A stretch of DNA of 64,000 nucleotides, from NCBI GenBank assembly GCA_001603805.1, contig LUZY01000011.1, positions 1-64,000 of the forward strand, given 5' to 3'. Below, piece after piece: positions 1 through 2,575 of this stretch (position 1 is the first letter of the stretch; each line of letters opens with the position of its first letter). Source of the stretch: Deferribacterales bacterium Deferri_01 (lineage in GTDB: Bacteria > Chrysiogenota > Deferribacteres > Deferribacterales > Geovibrionaceae). Made by a program: the position numbers and the translations under genes. A model generated the notes under the pieces. The model had not been told where the DNA came from and made no database searches. It saw nothing but the letters and a program-made list of their open reading frames with translations.

Positions 1-2
1 TA

Positions 3-50
3 ATGGCAAAATTCGATGTAGGCGGTCAGGCGGTTATTGAGGGTGCTTAG
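3..50 (+). pseudogene. Truncated DUF1385 start, copy 1 (15 codons)
   Basis: The ORF encodes MAKFDVGGQAVIEGA and then stops. The first 14 residues are identical to the intact protein beginning at 427. The stop codon is created where the sequence changes from gene to hairpin element (gggtg then cttag). It may be a translated leader peptide or simply a decayed copy. Confidence 0.75.
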
Positions 51-149
51 TCACACGGATGTGACCGCGGAGTGCGTACCACAGCGGATGCGAGGAACGC
101 ATAACGTAGCGTAAGCAGCAAGGAGCTTCGCTCCGCAGGCTGCGTGCGA
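50..149. repeat. Structured intergenic element, long variant, copy 1
   Basis: The element opens with GTCACA-cgga-TGTGAC, a 6-bp hairpin with a GGA-containing loop. A linker follows containing gtgcgt and acgca, which can pair. A compound hairpin at 115-143 has an outer GCAGC/GCTGC stem and an inner GGAGC-ttc-GCTCC stem. It ends in gcgtgcga. The opening hairpin loop and the gcgtg end resemble the elements at 1324 and 11155, but the middle is longer and the third hairpin is not seen. Confidence 0.65.
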
Positions 150-213
150 TAAAAAACAACAGGATGTAAGTTTTTTTGAGCAGTTTGATGTTGATATAAA
201 TGAGGAAAATATA

Positions 214-261
214 ATGGCAAAATTCGATGTAGGCGGACAGGCGGTTATTGAGGGTGCTTAG
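214..261 (+). pseudogene. Truncated DUF1385 start, copy 2 (15 codons)
   Basis: This is the same 15-codon ORF as at 3-50, with codon 8 changed from ggt to gga, a silent change. It is preceded by the same gagga ribosome site at the same distance from ATG as the intact gene at 427, so translation initiation is plausible. It ends at the same gene-to-element junction. Confidence 0.75.
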
Positions 262-360
262 TCACACGGATGTGACCGCGGAGTGCGTACCACAGCGGAT
301 GCGAGGAACGCATAACGTAGCGTAAGCAGCAAGGAGCTTCGCTCCGCAGGCTGCGTGCGA
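261..360. repeat. Structured intergenic element, long variant, copy 2
   Basis: This 100-base copy appears identical to the element at 50-149, including the GTCACA/TGTGAC hairpin and the nested GCAGC and GGAGC stems. It lies between truncated gene start 2 and the leader of the intact gene. Confidence 0.65.
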
Positions 361-426
361 TAAAAAAAACTACAGGATGTAAGTTTTTTTGAGCAGTTTG
401 ATGCTGATATAAATGAGGAAAATATA

Positions 427-1323
427 ATGGCAAAATTCGATGTAGGCGGTCAGGCGGTTATTGAGGGTGTTATGATGCGTGCCCCAAGCAGATTTGTGAT
501 CGCTGTCAGGAAACCTGACGACAATATAATAATTAAAAAACAGGATGTCAGTCTCGACAGAAACAAGTGGCTGAAAAAACCTGTTCTCCGTGGATTGATC
601 GCTCTTTATGACGCTTTGGTTCTCGGTATAAAAGCACTCAATTTCAGCGCTTATCATTCCTCCGGCGAGGGTGAGGAGCAGGTAAGTAAAACGGGCATGT
701 TTTTCAGCATGGTCGGCGGTCTTGGTCTTGGTCTGCTGTTGTTTGTGTATTTGCCTCTTCTGCTGACGGATTTAAGCAGGCATATTCTTCCTGCTGTGGA
801 GACATCCTCCCTGCTGTATAATGCAATTGACGGTGTTATCAGGGTTATCTTCTTTGTGCTGTATGTATGGATAATTTCCTTTTTCAAGGATATTCAGCGG
901 GTTTTTCAGTATCACGGAGCGGAGCATAAGGTTATATACACTTTTGAAGCCGGTCAGGATCTCACTGTTGAAAATGCCCGTAAAATGGGAAGACTCCACC
1001 CCAGATGCGGAACAAGCTTTATCATCATTGTTATGGCGGTGTGCATCCTCTCTTTTTCGCTCATACCGAATGATTCGCATTTTCTTATAAAGCTCGGCGC
1101 AAGGATCGTTTTTATCCCCCTTATCGCCGGAATATCGTACGAAATACTGAAATTCAGCGGACGCCATTGCGGCAATCCGTTGCTTAAAATATTTATAACT
1201 CCCGGACTTTGGGTACAAAAAATTACCACCAGAGAGCCGGACGATAAACAGCTTGAAATAGCCATCATCTCCCTCAAGGCAGCCCTTGATCAGGAGCTGC
1301 CGGAGAATGTAGAGGTTGTATAA
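427..1323 (+). CDS. DUF1385 family membrane protein (YqhQ-like)
   Basis: A 298-residue integral membrane protein of the DUF1385 family (PF07136). The family start (GGQAVIEGVMMR, residues 7-18) is intact. Hydrophobic stretches at about 95-120, 130-152, 195-215 and 225-240 are likely membrane segments. The conserved polar block containing YHGAEHK (about residue 163) and HPRCGTSF (about 191) is typical of the family. The molecular function of the family is unknown; YqhQ of Bacillus is the usual reference. It starts after a gagga site shared with the truncated copies upstream. The gene order DUF1385 then prfA is common in Gram-negative anaerobes. The structured element at 1324 begins directly after its stop codon. 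Confidence 0.85.
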   Translation: MAKFDVGGQAVIEGVMMRAPSRFVIAVRKPDDNIIIKKQDVSLDRNKWLKKPVLRGLIALYDALVLGIKALNFSAYHSSGEGEEQVSKTGMFFSMVGGLGLGLLLFVYLPLLLTDLSRHILPAVETSSLLYNAIDGVIRVIFFVLYVWIISFFKDIQRVFQYHGAEHKVIYTFEAGQDLTVENARKMGRLHPRCGTSFIIIVMAVCILSFSLIPNDSHFLIKLGARIVFIPLIAGISYEILKFSGRHCGNPLLKIFITPGLWVQKITTREPDDKQLEIAIISLKAALDQELPENVEVV

Positions 1324-1417
1324 CAGCCTCAAGGAAGAGGCTGCGCTGTGCGAAGCGAAGCCTTGTTTACAAGGTGCGAGCGTGTGCCTTAGTCTGATAG
1401 GACGTGCAGATTAAGGC
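1324..1417. repeat. Three-hairpin intergenic element (copy at DUF1385/prfA junction)
   Basis: Hairpin 1 is CAGCCTC-aaggaa-GAGGCTG (1324-1343). The linker is cgctgtgcgaagcgaag. Hairpin 2 is CCTTG-ttta-CAAGG (1361-1374). The second linker is tgcgagcgtgt. Hairpin 3 is GCCTTAGTCTG (1386-1396) against CAGATTAAGGC (1407-1417), with one mismatch. The two linkers match those of the elements at 11155 and 11285 almost base for base, while every stem sequence is different. That pattern points to conserved structure and not to simple sequence repetition. Confidence 0.75.
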
Positions 1418-1504
1418 TGTAAGTTTAAGCAGTGTAAGGCATAATCAAACATACATAAATTCACCGCAAAAGATGCGGGCTTAAAATATATTCAGGAATA
1501 AACA

Positions 1505-2575
1505 ATGTTCGACAAACTGGAAGAAGTAGTCATCAGGTATGAAGATCTCACCCGTAAAGTTAATGATCCCTCTGCGGCAAAGGATCCCAAAGCGTTTCAG
1601 AAACTTGCCAAAGAGCATTCGGAGCTTAGGGGAGTTGTTGAGAAATATGAAGAGTATAAAGCTGTTAAGGCGTCCATAGCCGAAGCGAAAAGCATTCTTG
1701 AAACCTCAAATGATTCTGACCTCCGTGAGCTTGCGGAGATGGAGATAGAAGAAGGCAGAGACAAACTCGAAACCTTGGGTGAAGAGCTTAAACTATTGCT
1801 GGTCAAGAAAGATCCTTACGATGAAAAGAATATATACGTGGAAGTCCGTGCAGGAACAGGCGGTGATGAGGCTTCTCTGTTTGCGGCGGCTCTTTTCCGT
1901 ATGTACAGCAGATATGCCGAAAATCAGCGCTGGAAAACAGAGCTTATTGACTTCAACGAAACCGGAGTAGGTGGATACAAAGAGGTCGTTTTCATGGTTA
2001 AGGGAAAAGGCGCATACAGCCGCTTAAAATATGAATCCGGCGGTCACAGAGTACAGCGTATCCCTGAAACGGAATCCGGCGGGCGTATACACACTTCCGC
2101 CTGTACTGTTGCGGTTCTGCCGGAGGCTGAAGATGTTGAGATAGATGTTAACCCAGCCGATATTAAGGTGGATGTTTACCGTGCCAGCGGAGCGGGCGGA
2201 CAGCACGTCAATACAACCGACTCCGCAGTGCGTATGACTCACGTTCCCACGGGAATTGTTGTTACCTGTCAGGATGAAAGAAGCCAGATTAAAAACCGTG
2301 AGAAGGCACTTAAGCACCTTAAGTCCAAGATACTTGAGATCGAAATCCGCAAACAGGCTGATGAACGTGCAGAGAGCAGAAAGCTTCAGGTAGGTTCCGG
2401 TGACAGAAGTGAAAGAATCAGGACATATAATTACCCCCAGAACAGAGTTACCGACCACCGTATAAATGTAACCTCATACAGCCTTGACCGCTTCATGGAA
2501 GGCGAGATGGACGACATTCTTGACGCACTCTTCTCCTTTGATCAGGCAGAGAGATTGAAAGAGGCCGGGCTTTAG
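1505..2575 (+). CDS. prfA: Peptide chain release factor 1
   Basis: A 356-residue class I release factor that terminates translation at UAA and UAG. The GGQ motif that enters the peptidyl-transferase centre lies in GAGGQHVN (about residue 231), where the glutamine is the methylation target of PrmC. The codon-reading tripeptide is PET (in RIPETESGG, about residue 189), the P-x-T form of RF1 and not the SPF form of RF2. Length and domain order match RF1. A ribosome site AGGA lies 8 bases before ATG. The gene is followed by a terminator and then by an opposite-strand cassette that separates it from prmC. Confidence 0.97.
   Translation: MFDKLEEVVIRYEDLTRKVNDPSAAKDPKAFQKLAKEHSELRGVVEKYEEYKAVKASIAEAKSILETSNDSDLRELAEMEIEEGRDKLETLGEELKLLLVKKDPYDEKNIYVEVRAGTGGDEASLFAAALFRMYSRYAENQRWKTELIDFNETGVGGYKEVVFMVKGKGAYSRLKYESGGHRVQRIPETESGGRIHTSACTVAVLPEAEDVEIDVNPADIKVDVYRASGAGGQHVNTTDSAVRMTHVPTGIVVTCQDERSQIKNREKALKHLKSKILEIEIRKQADERAESRKLQVGSGDRSERIRTYNYPQNRVTDHRINVTSYSLDRFMEGEMDDILDALFSFDQAERLKEAGL

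Follow-up and report, generated by a model that had tools for sequence, protein, structure and literature searches.

Organisation of the locus

The window (the whole stretch of 64,000 nucleotides analysed here) begins at the first base of contig C11 in genome G000. Working from its 5′ end downstream along the forward strand, on which the window features described in this section lie, we see two truncated starts of a DUF1385 gene, each running into a hairpin element, followed by the intact gene itself (positions 427–1323; 298 amino acids, defined by its open reading frame and a profile match to PF07136). The starts are spaced by 211 and 213 bp, such that the opening 14 codons of the gene recur in two units ahead of the complete copy, and a direct-repeat comparison of the window pairs positions 1–156 with 212–367 (99%) and 151–256 with 364–469 (97%). 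The two units recognised in the original prediction are real, and the third start does belong to the real gene, as had been proposed.

Each truncated start reads MAKFDVGGQAVIEGA, runs into the element and closes at a TAG stop codon. The first occupies positions 3–50, its own leader and ribosome site lying on another contig (C9). It is overlapped by the first copy of the element (46–200, with an approximate right end), which we define by its folding (z −3.63) and by the positions of its hairpins: H1, with the loop CGGA, at 50–65; two predicted stems at 67–107 and 110–148; and, by eye, a ACAGGATGT hairpin at about 152–178. A stretch resembling a ribosome site, GAGGAAAATATA (202–213, by eye), then precedes the second truncated start (214–261), which encodes the same peptide with one synonymous base changed, and the second copy of the element (257–413, right end again approximate; H1 at 261–276), identified from the direct repeat and its hairpins. 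For a 110-nt spacer three hairpins are predicted, at −44.7 kcal/mol and the z of −3.63 given above.

Across the 43 bases from the ATG to GAGGGTG, the sequence is the same in the intact gene, in the first truncated copy and in that on contig C9, the second copy differing from the gene at the single synonymous base; the mini-ORFs do, as had been read from the letters alone, end within the hairpin element with a synonymous change as their sole coding difference, and a single such change over 43 bp is too little to test for selection on the peptide. Directly 3′ of the DUF1385 stop codon sits a further element of the same family, detected with the core pattern described below (1324–1435, outer limits by eye; core at 1350–1382), and the next gene encodes a prfA-type release factor (1505–2575; open reading frame with profile matches to the PCRF and RF-1 domains). 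Promoter and terminator prediction over positions 1–1600 gave nothing above chance: three promoter-like sites (2.5 in shuffled sequences) and one terminator-like site (1.5 in shuffles).

The array abuts the contig edge. Contig C9 ends in 61 bases that match window positions 1–61 exactly, and three other pairs of contig ends in the assembly overlap by 50–56 bases. C9 is the neighbouring contig upstream, where a reading had been suggested as a means of counting copies; the exact copy number is not fixed by the C9/C11 break, and further units of the array may be hidden there. The order on C9 is a frame that we take to be rho-like, rpmE, thyX, a leader and the start of the DUF1385 gene. Since this leader, which follows rpmE and thyX, is unlike the leader inside the units, only part of the description of each unit as a repeat of both leader and start holds good: the start is repeated in all copies, the repeated leader being common to copies 2 and 3 only.

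A further suggestion, that the element had replaced a segment of the gene, is not supported, the gene being of full length and aligning end to end with those of its congeners. The likeness between the tail of the element and gene bases 534–548, which had prompted that idea, involves an ACA(N)GGA(T/C)GT hairpin common in the family (80/139 units), and a gene without the element at its start, that of the congener G001, has a similar interior stretch, AAAAAACAGGACGTGAGT.

The same locus in congeners and relatives

Comparison of the locus in close relatives, as recommended at the outset, was run with the two other genus members, G001 and G002, and with more distant genomes. The DUF1385 gene is found in 36 of 39 genomes, that of the window included, and its start was located in 29 of the 30 loci fetched. 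A duplicated start lies upstream only in G000 and G002; the other 27 loci, G001 among them, have none (best match 23/33 bases), the 26 relatives outside the genus having been searched over 900 bp upstream of the located start (best again 23/33). A wider contig scan for relatives of the gene gave 73 named loci, the best at 55% identity, too remote to be of use.

In G002, whose assembly is a single contig, the locus carries one truncated start, identical to its own gene over 43/43 bases, and the element begins at the same base as that of the window (GAGGGTG|CTTAG). The two elements agree over about the first 40 columns (their 5′ part) and also over much of the tail, and because their middles differ, either an exchange of modules or independent insertions in G000 and G002 may be involved. 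In G001, by contrast with this filled site, the end of thyX, the leader and the DUF1385 gene run uninterrupted along one contig. Together with similar anatomy at other loci (see below), the shared junction in G002 and the uninterrupted site in G001 support the original reading of the array as a recombination scar left by insertion of a repeat element.

Between G000 and G002, 2–3 of the 43 bases of the gene start differ, and the truncated copies in each match their own gene at its synonymous bases, copy 2 in G000 being the one exception. Because the copies follow their own gene while the two species differ, this pattern points to homogenisation at the DNA level, or to recent duplication, rather than to selection on the peptide. 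G001 and G002 agree at the synonymous positions of the gene start; should these two be sisters, the single site in G001 would require either a loss or separate insertions in G000 and G002.

As an aside, a second and unrelated-looking type of repeat (GTCATTCTGAGC...GAATCTC and similar) is found in the same leader region of G002, 5′ of the first DUF1385 start (locus L020), and also in locus L028.

A dispersed family of elements

The hairpin element predicted from the window is present, and is moreover one member of a dispersed repeat family. A DNA search with the unit gave 14 matches and a composite query 31 at E-values up to 1, whilst an exact core pattern matches 46 times in G000, 71 times in G001 and 197 times in G002. 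Amongst the 47 other genomes of the phylum, the core pattern is found once each in G007 and G039, and it has no match in the other 45 of the 50 phylum genomes searched; read backwards, as a control, it has none in any of the 50. These core-pattern counts are likely to be lower bounds, because the pattern misses a related-looking, hairpin-rich stretch that directly follows the rho-like frame on contig C9 (L009:609–720, by eye). By eye, we estimate the length of an element at roughly 90–155 bp.

For quantitative comparisons we used a sample of 84 arrays holding 139 cores (G000 contributing 24 of the arrays, G001 50 and G002 10), that is 139 of the 314 core matches of the three genomes, arrays near the end of a locus or with an identical key having been dropped before counting. 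Tandem arrays make up 28 of the 84, with core-to-core intervals of 91–200 bp that are largely specific to the locus; units in many arrays include pieces of the neighbouring genes, often the last codons and the stop (by eye). Of the 84 arrays, 53 have a same-strand stop codon no more than 150 bases upstream, versus 353/1680 random positions, the remainder comprising 20 flagged as inside a stop-to-stop frame of at least 80 codons and 11 others. One locus of G002 (L212:1940–2860) has eight cores in a row, with unit lengths of 91 and 142 bp, one set following the other. Family elements also occur in an rRNA operon on contig C1 of G000 (L016:1–4850), in the gap between tRNA and 23S genes and in that between 23S and 5S.

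An Rfam search of window positions 1–2000 gave no match at E-values up to 1, and a search of 13 element loci at gathering scores matched only the rRNA and tRNA of L016. Viral contigs held no exact match to one core pattern. We found no published account of the repeats of this genus, the accessible parts of PMC4666352 and PMC10969869 included, which does not prove their absence from print.

Duplications that flank the elements

Many elements lie between direct repeats of their flanking DNA. At a score of at least 17, such a repeat is found for 23 of the 84 arrays (the present sample; an earlier run used 43 arrays and other limits), versus 1/336 shifted controls and 97/6962 pairs of flanks from different loci, which share element sequence; the other 61 arrays have none at that score. 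In 7 of the 23 the repeat lies away from the usual fixed right edge. When the cut is relaxed to a score of 14, the right copy begins 74–84 bases after the start of the core in 22 arrays. The detected length of these 22 repeats, all with a nearly fixed right edge, is 14–80 bp (the shortest, at L215, is weak) and exceeds 26 bp in 19; several consist partly of element sequence, and several extend into the first hairpin of a second, truncated element. The duplication starts with GA in 14/22 cases, the frequency of GA in left flanks being 0.073, and the sequence just before this GA frequently approximates AAGACA (by eye). L202 and L219 appear to represent the same insertion in two species; counted once, they would leave 13/21.

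Comparison between species shows occupied and single-copy states of a site. At L189, the flank is present once in G001, whereas in G000 and G002 an element separates two copies of it, the right one continuing into downstream DNA like that of G001. Of nine sites picked for an element in G000, a full element was read at four in G001 and at five in G002; one of the nine, L195, has differently placed elements in all three genomes. The closest twin of the DUF1385 array is found on the minus strand of L273 (G001, C1:25972–28004), where an element upstream of fliM is flanked by two 44-bp copies of the start of that gene, giving a truncated start ahead of an intact FliM gene, the same architecture as at DUF1385. 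A closing copy of the flank is missing from several tandem arrays (L183, L187 and L194 among them); these have either decayed, or duplication is not part of every insertion.

Proposed insertion with target duplication, and its main rival

We believe that these observations are best explained by a mobile palindromic element whose insertion duplicates its target, and so preserves the gene that it enters, with tandem amplification thereafter; we would put the probability of this reading at about 0.83. At the start of the window, a multi-hairpin intergenic repeat would have inserted into the DUF1385 gene after 43 bp of coding sequence, ending up flanked on each side by a direct copy of the target. 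Of these copies, the right one would then be the complete gene with a ribosome site of its own, and the left one would have become a 15-codon mini-ORF with a stop supplied from within the element. The unit of duplicated start plus element could subsequently have been amplified in tandem as the direct repeats slipped or recombined unequally. Recombination between the same repeats can, in principle, remove the element cleanly, and would in this way account for the uninterrupted site in G001. A widely staggered cut or template switching may have produced the long duplication itself. On this reading the mini-ORFs would most likely have arisen as by-products, though they may be translated. Against insertion stand the 61/84 arrays lacking a flanking repeat, the 7/23 with a repeat away from the fixed right edge and the tandem arrays that lack a closing flank copy; moreover, the start of the duplication in the DUF1385 leader is blurred, and the GA rule is not shown at this site.

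The main rival to insertion with a long target duplication is template switching at the hairpins. Here no insertion with target duplication takes place; slippage or template switching provoked by the hairpins of a pre-existing element would have duplicated flank and element together, followed by partial loss of the last element. We regard this course of events as possible, if rather unlikely. It fits right copies that reach into or past H1 of a truncated second element (L188, L203, L210, L281, L285, L293, L304 and L309), the tandem arrays that lack a closing flank copy, and a trio of arrays (L204, L205 and L208) in which, by eye, the last unit has a perfect third hairpin and the earlier units do not. 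It sits poorly with single elements that lie between flank copies with no second element 3′ of them, as at L189 with its G002 ortholog L226 and at L190, where relatives were compared, and likewise at L306 and L273, read without such comparison; these loci would require exact loss of a whole second element. Neither the nearly fixed right edge nor the GA at the start of 14/22 duplications is readily accommodated by slippage.

Hairpins and their likeness to CsrA sites

The outer hairpins of the elements vary in their arms yet stay paired and keep their GGA loops, thus resembling, at the level of sequence, binding sites for CsrA. For the first hairpin, a GGA loop on a perfect stem of at least four pairs is present in 108/139 units; when one is taken per locus, 51 of 68 are distinct from one another, and swapping arms between units gives full pairing over six bases in 826/9900 trials. 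Third hairpins are few in the perfect-stem search (15/139) because of a bulge; with a bulge allowed, the stem score reaches at least 8 in 99/139 units. At 56 loci chosen for a long stem, the outer six bases of the third hairpin pair in 56/56, partly by virtue of that selection, versus 24/3080 swaps. Without anchoring the search on GGA, the triplet is present in 62/64 first hairpins and 68/74 third hairpins (from 84 arrays each) and missing from the other two and six, respectively. Over the 64-kb window as a whole, perfect six-pair hairpins with GGA-type loops number only five, versus 1–3 in five Markov sequences.

Another explanation concerns function: the elements may be candidate CsrA-binding sites acting at the RNA level, as decoys or as modules at the 3′ or 5′ ends of mRNAs, kept by selection and with the duplications secondary. 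This is compatible with insertion, and we hold it to be doubtful. A CsrA gene is present in G000; the arms covary while the GGA loops stay; and the position of 53/84 arrays within 150 bases of a same-strand stop codon would suit such a role. ACA(N)GGA(T/C)GT is found in the third hairpin region of 80/139 units versus 0/504 background windows, the units being related and hence not independent; this resembles the CsrA SELEX consensus as given in the accessible part of PMC7652899, RUACARGGAUGU with the GGA mostly in a hairpin loop, and the predicted hairpins indeed place GGA in a loop within an ACA..GGAUGU context. The stems of the elements are, however, often longer than is favourable for CsrA according to that portion of the source. 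ACA(N)GGATGT is moreover found in the first hairpin region of only 17/139 units. CsrA is widespread, whereas the family occurs in numbers in one genus only, which also weighs against this explanation.

A possible leader-peptide array or assembly artefact

The truncated starts might instead form a selected array of leader peptides or upstream open reading frames that tunes expression of DUF1385 or prfA. The sequences resembling ribosome sites 5′ of copies 2 and 3, the open 15-codon frame and the retention of truncated starts in two species are what such an array would lead one to expect. Yet it is absent from G001 and from the 26 relatives outside the genus with a located gene start, duplications elsewhere often hold gene ends and stop codons (by eye), and the copies follow the synonymous bases of their own gene; an array of this kind is not needed to explain the tandem starts, and we consider it very improbable. 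That the array lies exactly at the C9/C11 break, with its 61-base common end, might suggest an assembly artefact, a worry that is reduced by the same architecture, with one truncated start, inside the single contig of G002 and by the differences between the window's own two units, to the point where we give it hardly any credence.

Relation to known repeat families and the route of mobility

Small palindromic repeats are common in bacteria; long duplications of host DNA that preserve the entered gene are, to our knowledge, unusual. If our reading is true, hairpins are placed inside compact coding regions without damage and can be removed by ordinary recombination, and a genus whose genomes each carry dozens to hundreds of copies offers a setting in which to test both the route of mobility and the possible link to CsrA.

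The nearest described kind would appear to be YPAL/RU-2 of Yersinia: an intergenic palindromic repeat of about 168 bp, without TA termini, with internal inverted repeats, target duplications of 3–26 bp, empty and filled sites between relatives and a possible action on upstream transcripts (PMC2229807, in the part available). The present element is likewise a small palindromic intergenic repeat with internal inverted repeats, variable target duplications and both empty and filled sites. It differs in the length of its flank repeats (14–80 bp rather than 3–26 bp, 19/22 being longer than 26 bp), some of which include element sequence, and in its tandem arrays of target plus element and covarying GGA-loop hairpins, which are not described for YPAL in the part of PMC2229807 seen. 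We would therefore say that it works like a YPAL/RU-2 repeat and do not file it as a member, the two having been compared by description only and most of the flank repeats exceeding the YPAL range.

With the REP, BIME and REPIN sequences mobilised with RAYT, the family shares dispersed palindromic modules, often 3′ of genes and possibly active as RNA, and it departs from them, as they are portrayed in the portion of PMC3733652 available, in having composite units in place of 20–40 bp repeats, long flanking duplications and no Y1_Tnp in 3/3 genomes. Repeated GGA hairpin loops in an ACA..GGAUGU context recall RNAs of the CsrB/CsrC type (PMC7652899, in part), but the elements are dispersed at gene boundaries rather than gathered in one sRNA gene. 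Like the MITEs RUP and Correia/NEMIS, as outlined in the available part of PMC2229807, the elements are short, mostly intergenic and of high copy number. Their flanking duplications are long beside those usual for MITEs, and no common terminal inverted repeat, a MITE trait, was seen by eye in the arrays read.

Searches of the three genus genomes for a Y1 transposase or a reverse transcriptase identified no mobility enzyme. PF01797 has no match in any of the three (controls matched in 5/14), and we set aside the REP/RAYT route on this basis. PF00078 matches once in G000 and in neither G001 nor G002; mobility by reverse transcription was likewise rejected, the sole RVT_1 protein best matching Drt9, a defence type, and G001 and G002 carrying elements without one. 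It is conceivable, albeit unlikely in our estimation, that the element spreads without either enzyme, its tail near AAGACA (by eye) jumping back by tens of bases to join the target at GA, so that the entered gene is preserved, and that its covarying GGA-loop hairpins could make each copy a CsrA-binding module, seeding sites of post-transcriptional control. The reverse transcriptase of G000 itself (L245:1219–2721; C3:114810–115451) is a protein of 500 amino acids that matches the Drt9 anti-phage model with an E-value of 9e-210.
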